35,141 nt of DNA. Origin: Nocardiopsis listeri. GTDB lineage: Bacteria; Actinomycetota; Actinomycetes; Streptosporangiales; Streptosporangiaceae. The stretch is from contig NZ_DYZD01000260.1 of the NCBI RefSeq assembly GCF_020741345.1, positions 1 to 35,141 on the forward strand. Direction: 5' to 3'. Each line of letters begins with the position of its first letter. Within the stretch, counting starts at the first letter, position 1. A program made the position numbers and the translations under genes. The notes under the pieces were generated by a model. It saw only the letters and a list, made by a program, of their open reading frames with translations, was not told the origin of the DNA and did no database searches. Below, piece after piece: positions 5,389 through 20,845 of this stretch.

Positions 5389-6132
5389 CACAACACTCCT
5401 GTTGTATCTGGGGGATGCCCGACCCGAGGGTCGGTGCCGCCCCGGTGACTGTGCACCGGAACCGGGGGCACGTTCCGACCTGGTGGCCGGGCGCGGTGTT
5501 TCACGAAAGCTCGAAGAGGGTCTCGAACCGGTCTGGGTGGGCGATCGGGTGGAAACGGGTCGGGTGGAACGCCCGTGCGCGTGGCGGTCCACACCGCGAG
5601 CCTAGTCGCTGGATCACGAAACGGAAACCGTCCTACCGACGACGATGTCATGTCCATGGGGTGACCGTTGGCGGAGCGCGGGGCGATCACGAGTCGGGTT
5701 CGGCGGGTCTTCCAGACCCGGGTCGGAAAGGCCGTCCAACGCCGAGGGGCCCTGGGAACCGCGCGGTTGCCGTGGGTCTCATGACCGTTCCGGCGTCGGC
5801 GGTGGAGCCTGTCGGGGCGACGGGCCGGATGGGCGGCGGCGCCATCGGCGAAGATCGAATCACGAGAACACTGATCACGAACAGATCACGACGATTGTTC
5901 GGCCGCGCCGGGTGGTCGCCACGGAAGGGATCTGTGAAGTTCCTTCCGATCGGTGAACCCTGCCGAGCCGGCGCGTCATTGAAGTTTCCATAAGCAGGAA
6001 GGCATCCGGACTCCGTTGCTTTCTCGCATAGAGATATTCGGAGCTTTGTCCGCTTTCGGACCTTCGACATGGAACGTTCGTCACCCTTTGTGGGGGTACG
6101 GCCGGGTCTCGTCGACCCGCTAGGTTGTGGGC
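5389..6132. other. Divergent intergenic region with repeated GATCACGA words
   Basis: No convincing gene lies in these 744 bases. ATCACGA occurs on the plus strand at 5613, 5686, 5859, 5874 and 5885 (first base), four of them as GATCACGA. A hairpin CCGACC-CGAG-GGTCGG (5419-5434) lies in the leader of the LATTG-protein gene, and GTCCG-CTTT-CGGAC lies at 6048-6061. The amidase promoter lies at the right edge. Confidence 0.4.
6121..6126 (+). promoter_or_regulatory. Putative -10 element of the amidase gene (leaderless)
   Basis: TAGGTT fits TAnnnT and lies exactly 6 bases before ATG 6133, so transcription would start on or next to the start codon. No Shine-Dalgarno sequence is present. No clear -35 element was found. 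Confidence 0.55.
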
Positions 6133-7017
6133 ATGCTCGACTCCGCACCAACAGAGCGCCCGGGCCGTGTACGCGCCCTGGCCCTGCTCTCGCTCGCGGT
6201 GCTGTTGACCGCGGCCTGTTCAGCACCCGCCGACGGTGCCCCGGACGGCGATCCCACGGCCGCCCCGCCGTTGCCGGGCCCCGAGGACTCGAACGGGGAG
6301 AACGGCGACGATGGGTCCGGGGAGGGCCAGGACGGCGCGGCGAACAAAGACGGCCCGCTGGGCGATCGGGTGGTGGTGATCGATCCCGGGCACAACGGTG
6401 GCAACGCCGCGGCTCCGAGCGAGATCAACAGCCCGGTACAGGTCGGCAACGGCGAGAAGGCCTGCGACACGGTCGGTTCGGAGACCGCGGACGGCTACTC
6501 CGAACACGAGTTCAACTGGGACCTGTCGCTTCTCGTCCAGGAGCGGTTGGAGGCCGACGGGGTCGAGGTGATCCTCACCCGCGAGGACGACGAGAGTGTC
6601 GGCCCCTGTATCGACAGACGAGCCGAGATCGGCAACGAGGCGAACGCCGACGCCGTGGTGTCCATCCACGCGGACGGCGGCCCGGAGTCCGGCCGCGGAT
6701 TCCACGTCATCACCCCCGGTGAGGTCTCCGGGTTGACCGAGGACATCGTGGAGCCCTCCGCCCTGCTCGCCGAGGACCTCCGACGCGAGTACCTGGAGGG
6801 TAGCGACATCCCCTACGCGGACTACCTCGCCGACGAAGGGCTGGACGAACGCACCGACCTGGGCGGGCTGAACCTGTCCACCGTGCCGAAGGTGTTCCTG
6901 GAGACCGGGAACATGCGCAACCCCGAGGACGCGGAGCTCCTGAGCGACCCCGCCTGGCAGGCGAACGCCGCCGACGCCATCGCCACGGGTCTGGCCACCT
7001 ACCTCATGCGCGACTGA
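6133..7017 (+). CDS. Lipoprotein N-acetylmuramoyl-L-alanine amidase (Amidase_3)
   Basis: The enzyme should cut the bond between N-acetylmuramic acid and the stem peptide of peptidoglycan, acting outside the membrane. The 294-aa product has a lipoprotein signal (LAVLLTAAC, lipidated Cys29), an acidic Gly/Asp/Asn-rich spacer at 30-77 and an Amidase_3 domain from about 78. VVVIDPGHNGG gives zinc ligand His87, SEHEFN gives Glu126, VSIHADGG gives His179 and FLETGN gives catalytic Glu257, so the active site looks complete. A GTG at 6127 is an alternative start, but ATG 6133 fits a leaderless transcript. The LATTG protein is divergent to it, which makes this an envelope locus. Confidence 0.92.
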   Translation: MLDSAPTERPGRVRALALLSLAVLLTAACSAPADGAPDGDPTAAPPLPGPEDSNGENGDDGSGEGQDGAANKDGPLGDRVVVIDPGHNGGNAAAPSEINSPVQVGNGEKACDTVGSETADGYSEHEFNWDLSLLVQERLEADGVEVILTREDDESVGPCIDRRAEIGNEANADAVVSIHADGGPESGRGFHVITPGEVSGLTEDIVEPSALLAEDLRREYLEGSDIPYADYLADEGLDERTDLGGLNLSTVPKVFLETGNMRNPEDAELLSDPAWQANAADAIATGLATYLMRD

Positions 7018-7026
7018 CGCCCTCCC

Positions 7027-7452
7027 TTACGTCCAGGAGGGGGCCACCGAGAAGGGCCGAGGGGCGGGGGACCGGTCGAGGCCGGCGGCTCGGCGTCCTT
7101 GACGTCCGAAGCGGGCGGCGTGTCCTTGTCGCGCTCCCTCGGTGGGGTCCTGTCGTCGCTCTCGGAGTCGTCCTCCTCGGGGCCGAGTCGATGACGGCGT
7201 CGGCCGTGGCGGTCGTGGTGCCGTCGACGGTCGGCCGGCCGCCGATGCCGCCGGAGAAGGAGTCGGAGACCGTCCGTTCCTGGGTGATGCACGTTTCCGA
7301 GACGCCGTCACCACCGACGGCCGAGGCGTGTCCCCAGCCGTAAGTGTCCGCGTGGGCCGGCATCACGGTGGCGATATACCCAGAGCGCCGAGAGCGGCGA
7401 AGGCCGCCCCGCCCTGAAGCACACGTCGAGCACTGAAACGAGCGTTCTTCAA
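7027..7452 (-). pseudogene. Broken gene for a small secreted protein (three one-base losses)
   Basis: A TTG start at 7452 follows AAGGA (7460-7464) at 7 bases. It begins a typical signal peptide (KNARFSARRVLQGGAAFAAL), but the frame stops at 7363-7365. If one G is restored in the GGG at 7379-7381, the reading continues GALGYIATVMPAHADTYGWG, a natural signal-peptide cleavage and mature start. Restoring one C at 7179-7182 gives SAPEEDDSESDD, and one C at 7066-7070 gives an end at 7027 (FSVAPSWT), just short of the amidase stop. The rebuilt protein is about 143 aa with a Gly/Thr-rich front and an acidic, Pro-rich tail. I do not recognise the family. Either the gene is decayed or the assembly lost bases. 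Confidence 0.65.
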
Positions 7453-8027
7453 GATCAATCCTTTTTCGGATCGTTCTGACCCGAGGGAGGTCGGGCCTGG
7501 CCTGGTCGCGCTTTCCACCGCGAAACTCACAAGGCTCGGGAAAACTCACAGGATCTTCGACCAGGGGTCGGACATGGGAGATCGGACAGGACACACAGAA
7601 GTCCTTGACCTGCCACAACGAGGCATGGAATCGACCACGACCCGCGAAGGCCGGGGCCGGAAGAGCCGGTTCCTTCATGTTCGCCTGCTTGACAAGAAAA
7701 ACACAGACGGGAAAGGCATGGAACCGGGGAACCGTATTTCAGAAAGGACACGATGGAGATCGAAAATCACCATTCGTGACGGTGGTCGAAGAATTCAGTG
7801 ATCCTTCGAGAACCGTGTGAACCGTTCGCCGGCACGAGCGTCTCACCTGGAACGGCCCACCGGGGGCTCCGGCTGTTCACGGCCTTTCCGATGGTGCGCG
7901 TCACTCCGCCGACCACCCGACCGCGTCGTTACCCGACCTTCCGGGCGGAACGGGACCTACGTCCACACTCGGCCAGAAACACCGGCCGGCATGGCGCGGG
8001 CCACCCCGCCTCGGCATAATGCGGTCC
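7453..8027. other. Intergenic region, nothing assigned except a promoter at its right edge
   Basis: These 575 bases separate the broken secreted-protein gene from the DivIVA-repeat genes. Open frames are present on both strands, but none shows a ribosome site plus coherent protein character. TTGACA occurs at 7689-7694 without a matching -10. CATAAT at 8015-8020 is the likely -10 of the next gene. Confidence 0.4.
8015..8020 (+). promoter_or_regulatory. Putative -10 element of the small DivIVA-repeat gene (leaderless)
   Basis: CATAAT differs by one base from TATAAT and ends 7 bases before ATG 8028, so the message would begin at or next to the start codon. No ribosome-binding sequence lies between. 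Confidence 0.55.
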
Positions 8028-8324
8028 ATGAATCCCCCGGCCACGGCCCTCCCAGAACCCGAGTTCGACCTCGTCCTACGCGGGTTCGACCGCACCCAGG
8101 TCGCCGACGTCGTCGAACAGGGTCTACGCGCCCTCGTCTCACCCGAGTCCGCAACGATCTCCGCCGGGCGGCTTCGAGAGCTCGTGCGGGTTCCCGATTT
8201 CGACGTGGTGTTGCGGGGACTGGACCGCGACCAAGTGCTGGGCTACCTTGGCCTGCTCGCCGACCGACTCGATGGTCGGTCGGCCGGCCGACGAGACGGC
8301 ACCCGACCACCCATGGGCTCCTGA
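8028..8324 (+). CDS. Small protein with two DivIVA-like repeats
   Basis: This 98-aa soluble protein contains two copies of a DivIVA-type motif: FDLVLRGFDRTQVADVVEQG (about 12-36) and FDVVLRGLDRDQVLGYLGLL (about 57-81). The pattern F-x-x-x-LRG-[FL]-DR-x-QV matches the membrane-curvature-sensing N-terminal motif of DivIVA/Wag31, but the long coiled coil that normally follows is missing. I chose ATG 8028 over ATG 8019 because 8019 overlaps a -10 element. The next gene encodes four repeats of a related type 40 bases downstream on the same strand. A role at the pole or septum is inference from the motif. Confidence 0.75.
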   Translation: MNPPATALPEPEFDLVLRGFDRTQVADVVEQGLRALVSPESATISAGRLRELVRVPDFDVVLRGLDRDQVLGYLGLLADRLDGRSAGRRDGTRPPMGS

Positions 8325-8364
8325 CTCGGCCCCTTCGACCCGTATGAACTGCACAATGGGGACC

Positions 8365-9102
8365 ATGCCTCTGACACCGGCGGACATCCGCAACAAGAAG
8401 TTCCACACGGTGCGCCTGCGCCCGGGCTACAACGAGGAGGACGTCGACGCGCTCCTCGACCGGATCGAGGCGACCCTGGTCGCCTTGGAAGGCGGGCCGC
8501 GCAAGGGGCCTCTGATCACCGCCGAGGAGATCCGCAACTCTCGTTTCCGCACCACTCGGATGAGTCCCGGGTATCGCGAGGACGAGGTGGACGACTTCCT
8601 CGACACCGTGATCGCCGACCTCGCCGGGCGAGGGCTGGGCCAGCCGGCACCCCCGCCGCTGCCGCCGCATCCGAACCAGGACGATCCGAGACGATCCGCC
8701 GCCCCGGCGCCCGGGCATCCCGGGGCGAGCGTCCCCGGTGGCGGCGGACCCGGAGCGGGCGACCCCCGGGCCGGTGGGCGACCCGCTCCTCGGCCCCCGG
8801 CCGGTCGGCCGGTGCCGTCCGGCCCTCGAATGACCCCGGACGACATCCGCAACCAGCGCTTCGCCACCACCAGGCTGACCACGGGATACAACGAGCAGGA
8901 GGTCGACGAGTTCCTGGACCGCGCCGAGTACACGCTGGGCGTGCTGCTCCAGGGGCGTCAGGATCGGGCCACCCTCACCTCGGGTGAGGTGGAGCGGGCC
9001 CAGTTCGCCACCACTCGGGCCAGGCCGGGCTACGACCCCGCCCAGGTCGACCGTTTCCTGGACGTCCTCGCCGACGAGCTGCGCCTGTACGAGCACCACT
9101 GA
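8365..9102 (+). CDS. Protein with four tandem DivIVA-type repeats
   Basis: The product is 245 aa with four copies of a roughly 36-residue unit of the kind collected as the short DivIVA domain (pattern TxxDIRNxxFxTTRxxPGYxExEVDxFLD). The copies lie at 3-41, 52-86, 157-194 and 205-242, with a Pro/Gly-rich disordered linker at about 90-155 between the two pairs. There is no coiled coil and no membrane segment. Canonical DivIVA has one such unit followed by a long coiled coil that oligomerises, so this is a different architecture that could bring several binding units together. CACAAT (8352-8357) ends 7 bases before ATG 8365, which fits a leaderless start; ATG 8356 is an in-frame alternative. It follows another DivIVA-repeat gene. 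Confidence 0.85.
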   Translation: MPLTPADIRNKKFHTVRLRPGYNEEDVDALLDRIEATLVALEGGPRKGPLITAEEIRNSRFRTTRMSPGYREDEVDDFLDTVIADLAGRGLGQPAPPPLPPHPNQDDPRRSAAPAPGHPGASVPGGGGPGAGDPRAGGRPAPRPPAGRPVPSGPRMTPDDIRNQRFATTRLTTGYNEQEVDEFLDRAEYTLGVLLQGRQDRATLTSGEVERAQFATTRARPGYDPAQVDRFLDVLADELRLYEHH

Positions 9103-9259
9103 CGGACACCCGGAACACCCGCACGGGAACACGCCGTCAGCGACACACCACGCCAAGGAAAGCAGAACGTAATATTCGAGTACAGGGAGTAGTCATCCCA
9201 TGCCACCGGCGGCTCCGGGAACAGTGACCCCGTGCCTTCGGCGGCTGGAGGGGAGCAGC

Positions 9260-10192
9260 ATGCAACACGTCACGCCGCCCGGAACGCCCGCCCCGGCCTG
9301 CTCGGTCCACACGGCCGCCGGCCGCGCCGCCATGTCCAGGACCCACCGCACACCACGGCCGGCCTCACTCCACGGCCACGCGCCGGAACTGTGCGCCGAG
9401 GATTGCGGAGACCACGTGGTGCTGACCCCCCGGCATCCTTGGGAACGGCCGCTGTTCGCCCTGTGCACGGCGGTGTCCGTGGCGATCATGAGCACCCTGT
9501 TCCATCTGGTGTGGTCGATCGGGTCGCTCCCGTGGGCCGTGACGGCCTTGGGCGCGGTGCCGTTGGTGTGCTGGTGGGTGAGCGGGCTGAGGTACGCCCG
9601 CGAACGCGCGGAGTCGGTGCGCGTCTCCCCCACCCAGTTCCCCGAGGTGTACCGCATGGTGGTGTCACTGGCCCGGGAGATGGGGCTGTCCAAGGCCCCG
9701 GAGGCGTACGTGCGGCGCGGCGAACCGTCCCCGCGCACCGACGCGTCCGGGCACGGGTTGCGCAGGTACCTGGTGCTTCCCGGAGCCCTGCTCGACGGGT
9801 CCGGTCGGCCGCGCGACCCCGAAGCGATGGCGTTCCTGGTCGCCCACCAGATCGGGCACATCACCTCAGGGCACACCGGCTACTGGCAGCGCCTCGCGAT
9901 CCTGGGTGCCGAACTCGTCCCGGGGCTGGGCTCGTCGTTGGCCCGAACGCGGGAGTACACGGCGGACGACCACGGTCTGGCGCACGTCCCCGAGGGCGCG
10001 TCGGCGGTACGACTGTTCGCCGGTGGATCGAGCCTGTACACGCGGGTGAACCTGGGTGAGATGGCCGCTCGTGCGTCGGTCGACCGGGACCCCTCGTTGT
10101 TCGTGTACCACTTGCTGTCGCGGCGACCGGGCAACGTCCGGAGGATGGCCGCGCTCCGGGACCGCAGCCGCAGGGGGCGCGTTCTCATTTGA
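9260..10192 (+). CDS. M48-like membrane protein with HQxxH in place of HExxH (probable pseudo-peptidase)
   Basis: The product is 310 aa from ATG 9260, which follows GGAGGGGAG; ATG 9200 with AGGGAG is an in-frame alternative. Two transmembrane segments lie at about 66-86 and 92-109, followed by a cytoplasmic-type M48 peptidase domain. The zinc-site helix reads FLVAHQIGHITSGH: His196 and His200 are kept, but the catalytic Glu is Gln197 (CAG at 9848-9850). The usual third ligand segment is present as REYTADDHG with Glu232. In zinc peptidases the Glu of HExxH activates water, so Glu to Gln normally abolishes catalysis while metal may still bind. The likely role is a non-catalytic or regulatory homologue. 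It follows the DivIVA-repeat genes on the same strand. Confidence 0.8.
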   Translation: MQHVTPPGTPAPACSVHTAAGRAAMSRTHRTPRPASLHGHAPELCAEDCGDHVVLTPRHPWERPLFALCTAVSVAIMSTLFHLVWSIGSLPWAVTALGAVPLVCWWVSGLRYARERAESVRVSPTQFPEVYRMVVSLAREMGLSKAPEAYVRRGEPSPRTDASGHGLRRYLVLPGALLDGSGRPRDPEAMAFLVAHQIGHITSGHTGYWQRLAILGAELVPGLGSSLARTREYTADDHGLAHVPEGASAVRLFAGGSSLYTRVNLGEMAARASVDRDPSLFVYHLLSRRPGNVRRMAALRDRSRRGRVLI

Positions 10193-10311: not shown

Positions 10312-10317
10312 GGCATG

Positions 10318-10569
10318 GTGAGTCTTCTGAACGAGCAGATCGACGTCCGTTCCACCGACAAGGGGAACCCCGCACGGTTCACCTGGCGTGGCCACACCTT
10401 CCGGGTGCGCAGGATCATCGGCGACTGGCCGGCCACGACCGAGGCCTCCGGCAACCGGACCCACCTGCTCCGGGTCTCCGCGGAGTCCGAGGCCGGCGAG
10501 CCCAGCATCATCGACATCAGCAAGGACGTCGCGTCGGACCGTTGGACCATGCGGCGTCAGTGGAACTGA
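10318..10569 (+). CDS. Small DUF6504-like protein
   Basis: This 83-aa soluble protein contains PARFTWRGHTFRVRRIIGDW, which resembles the core of the DUF6504 family (a basic beta-rich domain often encoded near DNA-polymerase-related or metabolic genes in actinobacteria). The function is unknown. GTG 10318 is the preferred start because it lies 6 bases from TAGACT; ATG 10315 immediately before it would add one residue. There is no signal peptide or membrane segment. It is convergent with the NUDIX gene, 70 bases away, and no strong terminator was seen between them. The family assignment is from memory of the motif and is only moderately certain. Confidence 0.65.
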   Translation: MSLLNEQIDVRSTDKGNPARFTWRGHTFRVRRIIGDWPATTEASGNRTHLLRVSAESEAGEPSIIDISKDVASDRWTMRRQWN

Positions 10570-15498: not shown

Positions 15499-16602
15499 TT
15501 ATTTCACGACATCGGAACCGGTGTGGTCGGCCGCCCCTCGGAGAGCTTCGGTGTCCTCTTCGGAGCGGTCACGTTCCGTTTCCACGTCTCGAACACCATC
15601 ACGCTGTGTGAAGGAATCCAGCAGAGTGCGGGCGGCCAGGGTGGGTGTGGTCTCCCCCGAGCGCACCCCGGCCTCCATGTCCGGGATGAGATCCGACACC
15701 TCCCGATCGCTCAGGAAGGTGTCCATCAGCCGATCCCGGACCTGATCCCACATCCAGCTGACGCCCTGGGCGCTGCGACGCTCGGCCAGGGCACCGTCGC
15801 GCTCCAGCACGGCCCGATGTTCGAGCACCGCCTCCCACACCCGATCCAGCCCGTCACCGGTCAGGCCGCTGCAGGTCAACACGGGCGGACGCCACTCGGG
15901 GTGGACGGGCTGGAGCAGCCGCAGGGCCCTGGAGAGCTCACGGGCGGCCTTGCGGGCGTCGTCGGCGTGCGGCCCGTCGGCCTTGTTCACGGCCACGACG
16001 TCCACCAGTTCCAGGACACCCTTCTTGATGCCCTGGAGCTGGTCACCGGTGCGCGCCAGAGTCAGGAAGAGGAAGCAGTCCACCATCGCCGCGACGGTGA
16101 CCTCGGACTGCCCGACACCCACCGTCTCGACCAGGACCACGTCGAACCCGGCCGCCTCCATCAGCAGCATGGTCTCCCGGGTCGCCCGGGCCACCCCGCC
16201 GAGGGTCCCGGCCGTGGGCGAGGGACGGATGAACGCGTTCGGGTCGACCGCCAGCTCGGACATCCGGGTCTTGTCACCGAGAATGCTGCCACCGGTCCGG
16301 GTGGACGAGGGGTCCACGGCCAGCACGGCCACCCGGTGCCCGTTCGAGGTCAGCCGACCGCCGAGCGCGTCGATGAAGGTCGACTTGCCCACCCCGGGCA
16401 CCCCGGTGATCCCCACCCGTTGCGCCTTGCCGGTGTGCGGCAGCAACCGCACCAGCAACTCCTGGGCTGCGCGCGCGTGGTCACGACGGCGCGACTCCAC
16501 CAGGGTGATCGCCCGGGCCAGGGTCGGCCGGTGTCCGGCCAGGACCCCCTCGGCCAGGGCGTCCACGTCCACCGAACGACTCCTGCGCGCCGCCACGGTC
16601 AC
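15499..16602 (-). CDS. meaB: MeaB, GTPase chaperone of methylmalonyl-CoA mutase
   Basis: This 367-aa G3E-type GTPase loads and protects the adenosylcobalamin cofactor of methylmalonyl-CoA mutase in the cytoplasm. The P-loop GVPGVGKST lies at 67-75, followed by AVDPSS (96-100) and [11 protein letters not shown], then ETVGVGQSE and NKAD as later GTPase motifs. The length is somewhat above the usual 310-330 because of an acidic C-terminal extension ([19 protein letters not shown]). The GTG start at 16602 overlaps the mutB stop as GTGA, so translation is coupled. Its place directly after mutB settles the assignment over the older name ArgK. Confidence 0.95.
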
Positions 16603-18833
16603 TCCCCTTCCAGGTCCGTTCCCAGACGTTGTTCGAGTTCGTCGAGCAGGTCGACGGCGGCTTCGGCGATCACCGTGCCCGGCGGGAAGATCGCGGACGC
16701 TCCCGCTTCGCGCAGCTCCTCGAAGTCGCCCGGAGGGATGACCCCACCGACCACGATCATGATGTCCGAACGGTCGAGCGCGGCCAGTTCCTCGCGCAGC
16801 GCCGGCACCAGGGTCAGGTGCCCCGCCGCCAGGGAGGACACCCCGACCACGTGCACGTCGGCCTCCACGGCCTGGGCGGCGACCTCGCTCGGGGTCTGGA
16901 ACAGCGGACCCACGTCGACGTCGAAGCCGAGGTCGGCGAAGGCGGTCGCGATGACCTTCTGGCCACGGTCGTGACCGTCCTGGCCCATCTTCGCCACCAG
17001 GATGCGGGGACGACGCCCCTCCGCCTCGGCGAAATCGTCGACGCGCGCGGTCACCCTGTCCATCAGTCCGGCGGCGTCGGCGTTGCCGGCCGCTTCGTCC
17101 TTGTACACACCCTGGATGGTACGGATCTGACCGGAGTGACGGTTGAAGACCTTCTCCATCGCGTCGGAGATCTCTCCCACGGTGGCCTTGGCACGGGCGG
17201 CGTTCACCGCGGCGGCCAGGAGGTTGTCGGTGAGGTTCTCGTCCGCCTTGGACTCGCGTCCGGCGGCCTCGGTCAGCGCGTCCAGTGCGGCGCGCACCTC
17301 ATCGTCGTTTCGTTCCTCGCGCAGGCGGCGCAGTTTCTCCAGCTGTTCGGCGCGCACGCGGGTGTTGTCGACCTTGAGCACCTCGATCTCGTCGGCGGTG
17401 TCGGGCCGGTACTTGTTGACGCCGATCACCGGCTGACGGCCCGAGTCGATACGCGCCTGGGTGCGCGCGGCCGCTTCCTCGATGCGCATCTTGGGCAGGC
17501 CGGCGTCGATCGCGGCGGCCATGCCACCGGCCTTCTCGACCTCCTCGATGTGCGCCCAGGCCTTGCCCGCCAACTGTCGGGTCAGGCTCTCCACGTAGTA
17601 GCCGCCGCCCCAGGGGTCGACCACCCGGGTGGTCCCGGACTCCTGTTGCAGCAGGAGCTGGGTGTTGCGGGCGATACGTGCGGAGAAGTCGGTGGGCAGG
17701 GCAAGCGCCTCGTCCAGGGCGTTGGTGTGCAGCGACTGGGTGTGTCCCTGGGTGGCGGCCATCGCCTCCACACAGGTGCGGGCCACGTTGTTGAACACGT
17801 CCTGCGCGGTGAGCGACCAGCCGGAGGTCTGCGAGTGGGTGCGCAGGCTCAGCGACTTGTCCTTGGTCCCGCCGAGGTCCTTGACCAGACGCGCCCACAG
17901 CAGGCGGGCGGCGCGCAGCTTGGCGACCTCCATGAAGAAGTTCATGCCGATCGCCCAGAAGAACGACAGCCGCGGCGCGAACGCGTCCACGTCCAGACCG
18001 GAGCGCTGACCGGCGCGGATGTACTCCACCCCGTCGGCGAGCGTGTAGGCCAGCTCCAGGTCGGCCGTGGCCCCGGCCTCCTGCATGTGGTAGCCGGAGA
18101 TCGAGATGGAGTTGAACCGCGGCATCCGCTGGGAGGTGTAGGCGAAGATGTCGGAGATGATCCGCATCGACGGCGTCGGCGGGTAGATGTAGGTGTTGCG
18201 GACCATGAACTCCTTGAGGATGTCGTTCTGGATGGTCCCCGACAACTTCTCGGGCGACACGCCCTGTTCCTCGGCGGCGACGATGTACAGCGCCAGGATG
18301 GGCAGCACCGCGCCGTTCATGGTCATGGAGACGCTCATCTTGTCCAACGGGATGCCGTCGAACAGTTGACGCATGTCATAGATGGAGTCGATGGCCACCC
18401 CGGCCATTCCGACGTCGCCGGCGACCCGAGGGTGGTCGGAGTCGTAACCGCGGTGGGTGGCCAGGTCGAAGGCGACCGACAGGCCCTTCTGTCCGGCGGC
18501 GAGGTTGCGCCGGTAGAAGGCGTTGGACTCCTGGGCGGTGGAGAACCCGGCGTACTGTCGGATGGTCCACGGCTGGTTGACGTACATGGTCGGGTAGGGC
18601 CCGCGCAGGTACGGCGGGACGCCCGGTAGTCCGTCGACGAAGTCCAGGCCGGCCCGGTCTGCGGGGGTGTAGAGCGGCTTGACCCCGATTCCCTCGGGGG
18701 TCTGCCACTCCAGGGCGTCGGCGGCCTTGCCGGTCGCCTCCTCCAGGGCACGCTGCCAGTCGGCGCCGCCCTGTGCTCCCTGCCCGGTGAAGGCAGGCGG
18801 CTCCGGTGCGATGTCGGAGAAGTCGGGGATCAT
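16599..18833 (-). CDS. mutB: Methylmalonyl-CoA mutase, large catalytic subunit
   Basis: The enzyme interconverts succinyl-CoA and (R)-methylmalonyl-CoA with adenosylcobalamin, linking propionate and odd-chain or branched-chain catabolism, or polyketide precursor supply, to the TCA cycle. The 744-aa product has the TIM-barrel substrate domain ([55 protein letters not shown]) and a C-terminal cobalamin domain with [10 protein letters not shown], where His621 is the lower axial cobalt ligand. ATG 18833 overlaps the mutA stop by 4 bases. All family motifs are intact. Confidence 0.97.
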
Positions 18834-20758
18834 GAACTCGCCCCCTGGGCGTCGGTGGTGCTGACGGGAGGATCGGTGATGAGGACGTCCACCAGGTCGG
18901 AGAGCAGGGCCACCGCGTCACAGCCCTTGTGGGCGAACACGTCCACCCCCGCCTCACGGTAGGCGTCGCGCGGCGCCCCGGCGAGCAGGACCCGACGGGC
19001 GCCCGCCCCCTTCAGGGCACGTGCCAGCGTTTCGGCGTGCTCGGCGTACACCTTGTCGGAGGAACAGATGACCGCGACCCGGTGACCGGAGGCGGCGAAG
19101 GCCTCCGCCGCGGAGCGCGGGTCCTCCAGTGGCCCCGGGGAGTCGGCGGCGATCCCGCCCGCGGCGAGGAGGTTGGTGGCGAAGGACGCGCGGGCGGTGT
19201 GCACCGCCACCGGACCCAGCGTGGCCAGGAACGCCGTGGGGCGGTGGCCGGTCCGCGCCTTCTGGGCGTCGCAACGGTCGCGCAGCGCCTCGTAGTCCTG
19301 TCCATAGCGGCGTACCGGGAAGCCGTCGGCGGTCGGTTCGACCCGGCCGGGGTCGACCTCGCGCACCAGCGGTGTCTCCTCCAGGTTCGGGAACTCGCTC
19401 AGGCCGGTCAGCGGCGCGGCACGGGTGGCCAGATCCTGTCGGCGGCGTTCCCACACCTTGTCGACGGCGGCGCGCAGTTCACCGTTTGCGATGGCCTCGG
19501 CGACGCCACCGGACCGCTCCAGTTCCTGGAAGAAACCCCACCCGGCGCGGTACAGGTCCCCGGTGAGGGACTCCACGTAGAAGGAGCCCCCGGCGGGGTC
19601 GATGACCCGTGCCAGGTGCGACTCCTCGATGAGCAGCGACTGGGTGTTTCGGGCGATACGTCGGGCGAAGTCGTCGGGCAGACCGATCGCGGAGTCGAAG
19701 GGCGCGACGGTGACGGCGTCGGCGCCGCCCACTCCCGCGGCGAAGCAGGCGACCGTGGTCCGGAGCATGTTGACGTGCGGGTCGCGGCGGGTGAGCATCG
19801 CGTCCGAGGTCGTGGCGTGCAGGCGCATGGCACGCCGGTCGGCCGGCACTCCGGAGACCTCCAGCACCTGGTTCCACATGGCGCGGACCGCGCGGAGCTT
19901 GGCGATCACCGTGAACTGGTCCGCGTTGGCGGCCAGACGGAACTCGATCCGCCCGGCGGCGTCCGCCGCGTCCAGACCGGTCTCGACCAGGGCTCGCAGG
20001 TAGGCGGTGCCCGCGGCGATGGCCGCTCCGAGCTCCTGGGAGTCGGACCCGCCGGCGTTGTGCACCAGGGTGCCGTCGGCGACGAACAGTCCGAGGTGCG
20101 GGTGGCGGGCGGCCCTTTCGGCGGCGAACCGCGCGGCGTCGGCCACCTCGGGGCGCTCACCGGCCAGGGCGGCCGTGGTGAGCGGGTCCAGACCCAGGTG
20201 GGAGATGACACGGCCGTCGGGGACGTCGGCGTCGGCGTGCGCCGCCAGCAGGGCCCGGGCCGCGTCGAAGGCCTCGGTGCCGGGGGCCCGCAACACCACC
20301 GGGGCCAGGTCGAGGTAGACGTCGGCGAGGGCCTCGCCCAACCGAGAGACCCGAAGGCCGTCACCGCCGACGCCGATCCACAGCGATGCGACACCGTTCA
20401 TCAGGTCGTTGTGGATACGCCTGCGCAGCTCGGCCGGGTCCGCGTCGCTGTGGCGCGCGCGGATGTCCCATCCGCCGGGCACACCGCCACCGGGGCGGTA
20501 CCCGCGGGTGAACGGCGCCAGCCCGGGGTAGCCGGGGTCGGGCGCCGGCGGTGCGCAGGTGTAGAGGGGATCGATGTCGAAGCCGTCGAGGGTGTGCGTG
20601 GCGAGCACCGATTCGGGCGTCCGCTCCAGGCGGTCCTCGGCGACACCGCTCTTACGCAGCACCCCGGCGACGAGTTCGCGCCACCGCTCACGTGTGGCCG
20701 CCGGGAAACCCTCGGCCAGGTCGAGGGCCTCGGCGGACCCGCTCTCTGGAACGTCCAT
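18830..20758 (-). CDS. mutA: Methylmalonyl-CoA mutase, small non-catalytic subunit
   Basis: The 642-aa product is the partner that forms the heterodimer with MutB. It keeps the barrel fold ([35 protein letters not shown]) and a degenerate cobalamin-like domain ([19 protein letters not shown], then [10 protein letters not shown]), lacking the DxHxxG cobalt ligand that MutB has, as is normal for this subunit. I start at ATG 20758 ([13 protein letters not shown]); the open frame upstream is Arg-rich and unlike the family. It heads the mutA-mutB-meaB operon. No cobalamin riboswitch is recognisable upstream; the preceding same-strand gene ends 87 bases before it. Confidence 0.93.
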
Positions 20759-20845
20759 ACTCCGAGATGGTAGAGAACGCCGTTCGGTCAAGGCGAGTCG
20801 GGGGCGGTTCGCCGCCCGCCGCAGCGGCCCCTCGGGATCCCTCAC

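Follow-up and report, generated by a model that had tools for sequence, protein, structure and literature searches.

We analysed a 35,141-nt stretch of DNA from Nocardiopsis listeri (GCF_020741345.1, contig NZ_DYZD01000260.1, forward strand), referred to here as the window. On its plus strand lie two genes for proteins made of DivIVA-like units, div2 and div4 (genes 1 and 2), and a gene for an M48-family membrane protein (gene 3; Table 1). All three open reading frames are on the strand and at the positions that a first-pass annotation had given them, and, since the same genes, units and HQxGH motif recur across the genus, the finding is not a product of chance. The interval drawn in that annotation, 8028-10192, encloses these three genes but leaves outside it an amidase gene (6127-7017) that forms part of the conserved neighbourhood described below.

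Table 1. Features of the div2-div4-M48 locus and its flanks, in window coordinates
Feature	Position	Strand	Basis
Ami1/Rv3717-type N-acetylmuramoyl-L-alanine amidase (Amidase_3), LTAAC lipobox-like signal	6127..7017	+	PF01520, NF038140, N-terminus inspection
div2 (gene 1), small PolyDIV-like protein, 98 aa, two degenerate DivIVA-like units	8028..8324	+	TIGR03544
Conserved non-coding GCACAAT element, promoter-like	8351..8357	+	6-7 nt upstream of probable div4 start codon
div4 (gene 2), PolyDIV, four DivIVA-like units as two pairs	8365..9102	+	TIGR03544, PF05103
div4 pair 1 (units 1 + 2)	8371..8622	+	TIGR03544 matches 8371-8478, 8515-8622
div4 pair 2 (units 3 + 4)	8830..9081	+	TIGR03544 matches 8830-8937, 8974-9081
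M48-family membrane pseudo-peptidase (gene 3), helix hairpin + zinc domain, HQIGH	9260..10192	+	PF01435
DUF6504 protein, conserved flank	10315..10569	+	PF20114, 30.2 bits

Between the amidase gene and div2, the minus strand carries what is left of a broken gene for a secreted surface protein with an LAxTG tail (7056-7708), which explains the 1-kb gap upstream of div2. Its pieces lie in two frames and align, at 56% and 77% identity, with an ORF of 517 aa that is intact at the corresponding position in the sister genome (L031). Farther along the minus strand (16599-20845), two overlapping genes encode methylmalonyl-CoA mutase subunits, an ordinary occurrence of the usual pair.

The four units of div4 are clear. 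The protein scores 174.8 bits against TIGR03544 (cut-off 22) over four stretches and matches PF05103 with an E-value of 1.2e-27. Among 46 relatives, the step from one unit to the next is 48 residues in 44 for pair 1 and in all 46 for pair 2, while the step between the pairs ranges from 66 to 157 aa across a variable, Pro/Gly-rich linker. An AF2 model reaches a pLDDT of about 90 within the pairs, and the linker is modelled with low confidence. Residues 206-252 superpose on a GpsB N-terminal domain at 1.2 Å over 46 residues, although the domain is small and Z is only 3.9, and a sequence profile matches Wag31 (6lfa, E 5.7e-6). Foldseek returned nothing at E <=0.001 for the div4 model, nor for the model of the M48 protein, so that what we say about either fold rests on moderate scores. 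div2 is less regular. Its two TIGR03544 stretches reach 19.8 bits, just under the cut-off, its degenerate units follow the motif FDxVLRGxDRxQV, and in many relatives its position is taken by homologues with varying unit numbers. We class div2 as a weaker and more variable PolyDIV relative than div4.

The counts of two and four units in the first-pass annotation thus hold, weakly for gene 1 and clearly for gene 2, whereas its picture of a single head repeated along a chain does not. When the same div4 unit position is compared between genomes, identity is 73-82%; between different positions it is 36-54%. Each head is therefore kept for a reason of its own, and different binding surfaces fit this pattern better than simple avidity. 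The units had also been described as free of coiled coil, which is correct only in part, as the published domain definition includes a short coiled-coil helix (PMC9858780) and such a helix is modelled in every unit. AlphaFold models in the same study show PolyDIV pairs folding within one chain, in a possible hub with several specificities; together with the spacing in div4, this suggests that each pair probably folds within the chain as one DivIVA-like head. div4 would then be monomeric, its two different heads joined by a flexible linker.

The listed ORF of div4 begins at 8344, but the true start is most likely 8365, giving a protein of 245 aa that begins MPLTP. The GCACAAT element before this start is kept at nearly every locus compared, across genera. 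Its distance to the ATG is either 6 or 7 nt among relatives, and because this spacing varies, the stretch reads as non-coding, which favours the start at 8365. GCACAATN6-7ATG occurs once in the window against 0.04 expected. The form TGCACAATN6-7ATG has a single match in the 5.5-Mb genome, for which reason we rejected a regulon sharing the element. We can only guess that it is a candidate leaderless promoter or regulator site; its promoter-like character suggests that div4 may be transcribed separately from div2.

Gene 3 matches PF01435 Peptidase_M48 (E 1.6e-9, 38.3 bits, cut-off 20.3) and carries HQIGH at residues 216-220. Its listed ORF starts at 9200; the most likely start is 9260, for a protein of 310 aa, because this ATG is preceded by a ribosome-binding site, GGAGGGGAGC, found also before the aligned start codon in nearly all relatives. 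Hydrophobic helices at 82-107 and 110-138 form a hairpin, and the first reading of the protein as an M48 pseudo-peptidase with two membrane segments is supported. Such a hairpin would place the zinc domain and the N-terminus on the same side of the membrane, and the positive residues after helix 2, together with the comparison with HtpX, point to that side being the cytoplasm. The best PDB fold matches of the model are BlaR1 and HtpX, both membrane zinc proteases, with weak E-values; a search of PDB sequences with the M48 profile gave no match.

The catalytic Glu of HExxH is Gln in 46/46 members of the HQ clade. A sequencing error can be discarded as the source of HQxGH, as Gln stands in every genus sequence read. 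Across 37 aligned sequences the zinc ligands H216, H220 and E252 do not vary, and the EYTADxHA helix is retained. A second M48 gene elsewhere in the genomes sampled encodes a protein of 267-269 aa with the active-type motif HEVGH; the two proteins are 38-42% identical and have their zinc site in common. In the cluster copies, the NAFASGHG stretch that is conserved in this paralogue has degenerated. By the Nei-Gojobori method (own script), dN/dS ranges from 0.15 to 0.29 over five HQ pairs and equals 0.09 for one HE pair. The invariance of Gln and of the zinc ligands after the loss, with dN/dS of 0.15-0.29, argues for a maintained pseudo-peptidase. A literature search of open-licence full texts turned up nothing relevant on M48 pseudo-proteases of this kind.

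The most constant partner of the PolyDIV genes is the amidase. It matches PF01520 with 121.7 bits (cut-off 27) and lies upstream of the PolyDIV genes at most loci of the lineage, in Nocardiopsis and related genera (about 14 by the numbering of the genome search). It does not hold at contig ends, in Allosalinactinospora (L189) or in one genus (L260) whose 1.5-kb flank contains no repeat. Among 45 loci of named genomes, mostly from Nocardiopsis with others from Streptomonospora, Allosalinactinospora and Marinactinospora, the amidase is present in 41 and M48 in 38, each always on the div4 strand. The M48 gene is lacking at seven loci, of which one is truncated by the end of its contig and six belong to genomes that have no cluster copy anywhere; these six keep the amidase and PolyDIV, which makes M48 an accessory part of the set and rules out an obligate M48-PolyDIV pair. 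PolyDIV occurs without a cluster-type M48, but the complete loci yielded no cluster-type M48 apart from PolyDIV. An HQ copy, full or partial, is present in 39/40 genus genomes; the exception, G035, was dropped as a case of M48 loss because the contig ends at its div4, which makes it uninformative.

The conserved same-strand neighbourhood on which the first-pass proposal of a three-gene unit depended is thus present, and to that extent the proposal stands; M48 is dispensable, as the six genomes show, and the constant partner had been missed. Nor is the set a fixed operon, given those genomes and the unrelated genes that intervene between div4 and M48 in other genera. Synteny within the genus is in itself weak evidence, because the nudix, ROK and xylA genes nearby show it there as well. 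These three leave the neighbourhood in other genera, whereas the amidase-PolyDIV arrangement stays. The gene for the DUF6504 protein is nearly always the next one, but its strand flips among relatives and it is probably not part of the unit.

One sub-lineage has the M48 gene downstream on the PolyDIV strand. In further genera of the group the amidase adjoins PolyDIV and there is no M48, 12 outgroup loci from 11 genera of the same broad family have no DivIVA repeats beside the amidase, and in one of these 12, L270, the amidase adjoins DUF6504 with no PolyDIV. These arrangements point to stepwise assembly, probably from an amidase-DUF6504 pair, into which PolyDIV and then M48 would have been inserted.

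Several individual records deserve mention. At L107, L109, L114, L184 and L188, in several genera, a gene is inserted between div4 and M48 or DUF6504, and its product, by eye, appears to resemble Uma2-family nucleases. In Nocardiopsis eucommiae CP074402.1 (L058 / L165) each of the genes for M48, the amidase and the nudix protein is spread over more than one frame; with several genes affected together, errors in the assembly seem a likelier cause than decay. Records titled Streptomonospora nanhaiensis (L170) and Glycomyces fuscus (L172) hold Nocardiopsis-like clusters in the same order with div4 at 70% identity, and their names may be outdated or wrong.

The history of the M48 gene can be followed in a tree of 64 sequences. 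A single branch (support 94/90) divides the HQ and HE groups, and one Glu-to-Gln change explains the HQ clade in 95% of bootstrap trees, so that we set aside several independent losses, with the reservation that this support is not absolute. The tree was rooted at its midpoint, so that the direction of the change depends on HExxH as the ancestral state of M48. Three cluster-located HE sequences adjoining PolyDIV (L113, L116 and L118) fall outside the HQ group, and the Marinactinospora locus L198 has HELGHFAAGH, as does L118. The existence of these Glu-bearing cluster copies indicates that M48 joined the cluster before the Glu was lost. The simplest history would be a duplication, arrival beside PolyDIV with an intact active site, and then one loss of the Glu.

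We suggest, in a model that we consider about as likely to be right as wrong, that a PolyDIV adaptor is tied to the cutting of septal or polar wall and that the M48 protein is its membrane-anchored, non-cleaving partner. Here div4 and div2 would be cytoplasmic PolyDIV adaptors of the cell-division or polar-growth machinery, sharing a process with the neighbouring exported Ami1-type amidase. This lineage is one of fragmenting, hyphal actinomycetes, and the process could be the control of where and when septal or polar wall is cut in hyphal fragmentation and branching. M. smegmatis without Ami1 forms chains and shows branching, ectopic poles and mislocalised DivIVA (PMC5430687). Read with this phenotype, the retention of PolyDIV beside an Ami1-type gene across the lineage points to septum splitting and the control of ectopic growth. 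Any amidase-PolyDIV link would be indirect, since the amidase acts outside the membrane and PolyDIV inside. The M48 protein, the duplicate of an initially active peptidase that would have settled beside div4 and lost the catalytic Glu in a single event, most likely serves today as a membrane-anchored, zinc-stabilised docking or sensor domain that does not cleave, on the cytoplasmic side with PolyDIV. A more specific and rather doubtful extension is that PolyDIV binds the M48 zinc domain at septa or poles, linking the polarity machinery of the cytoplasm with the splitting of septa by Ami1. If this were true, the binding would define a new division and fragmentation module of Nocardiopsis and its relatives, with M48 as a pseudo-protease partner of the DivIVA superfamily.

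The main rival of the overall model is that these genes are neighbours by descent only, PolyDIV and then M48 having been inserted into an ancestral amidase-DUF6504 pair, with each product acting alone. The arrangement at L270 is what this account would expect, DUF6504 keeps its position as well as M48 does despite its variable strand, and the same gap has received unrelated gene insertions. We nonetheless think it somewhat unlikely, given that the amidase, PolyDIV and M48 are invariant in strand and order where DUF6504 flips, and that the amidase-PolyDIV arrangement outlasts ROK, xylA and nudix in other genera.

Two further alternatives concern the M48 protein itself. Pseudo-peptidases are frequent regulators of their active relatives, and the HQ protein could regulate the HEVGH paralogue, or shield its substrates, having landed beside PolyDIV incidentally. 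The presence of that paralogue at another site in the genus genomes sampled, its degree of identity and the shared zinc site are in keeping with such a role. Against it, the cluster copy adjoins PolyDIV on one strand at every complete locus read, in many species and several genera, and the Glu-bearing cluster copies place the joining before the loss; we regard this alternative as unlikely. It is far less probable that the HQ protein remains catalytic through altered chemistry, such as slow or substrate-assisted hydrolysis. Retention of all zinc ligands and of the EYTADxHA helix would suit such an enzyme, but the HExxH Glu is the general base in this peptidase class, and with NAFASGHG also degenerate two active-site features are gone. 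In these soil bacteria the conserved neighbourhood, with a catalytic residue lost once and not regained, would fit a scaffold associated with the cutting of the cell wall into which a dead enzyme was drawn.

PolyDIV proteins are already known, having been published in 2023, and the first-pass view of the repeat proteins as an undescribed kind must be given up. What is new is the link of PolyDIV with the amidase and the M48 pseudo-peptidase, which we did not find in open-licence full texts. Our search of the same texts for follow-up work on PolyDIV gave nothing relevant, and where the proteins appear they are named only, with no function given. The constant link with an Ami1-type amidase offers a concrete, testable guess at the process in which PolyDIV takes part, and it is informative because mycobacterial Ami1 loss misplaces DivIVA. 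The M48 gene, in turn, is a clear example from nature of an enzyme that would have joined a neighbourhood with its active site intact, died once and was kept.

On its sequence, div4 is a PolyDIV. The family as described has 2-8 DivIVA-like domains per chain, even in number and in pairs, and is restricted to Actinobacteria, with Streptosporangiales among the named orders (PMC9858780, PLoS One 2023). div4 shares the multiple, paired units, with connectors shorter within pairs (48 aa) than between them (66-157 aa among the 46 relatives). It differs in its neighbours: UMP kinase is near most PolyDIV clusters in that study, as against the Ami1-type amidase and M48 pseudo-peptidase here, terms that are absent from its main text (PMC9858780). 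TIGR03543 (divI1A_rptt_fam) is likewise actinobacterial and has a repeated DivIVA domain with no long DivIVA rod, but div4 reaches only 77.2 bits, half the cut-off of 154.2, and the above-cut-off members in the class search are found in other families, so we rejected it as the family of div4. The div4 units match the N-terminal domain of Wag31/DivIVA and GpsB; unlike these, div4 has four different heads and no long coiled-coil rod, and it scores 77.1 bits against NF050102 (Wag31/DivIVA), where the cut-off is 260. A separate single-domain DivIVA-type gene lies on contig C11 of the same genome. Like HtpX and BlaR1, to which its fold matches are weak, the M48 protein combines membrane helices with a zinc domain, but it has HQxGH in place of HExGH and scores 20.8 bits against an HtpX equivalog cut-off of 422. 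The amidase of the window resembles Ami1/Rv3717 (PMC5430687) in its Amidase_3 domain, its export and its 223.4 bits to NF038140, and departs from it in falling below the cut-off of that model (335), in its lipobox-like signal LTAAC and in its linkage to PolyDIV genes.
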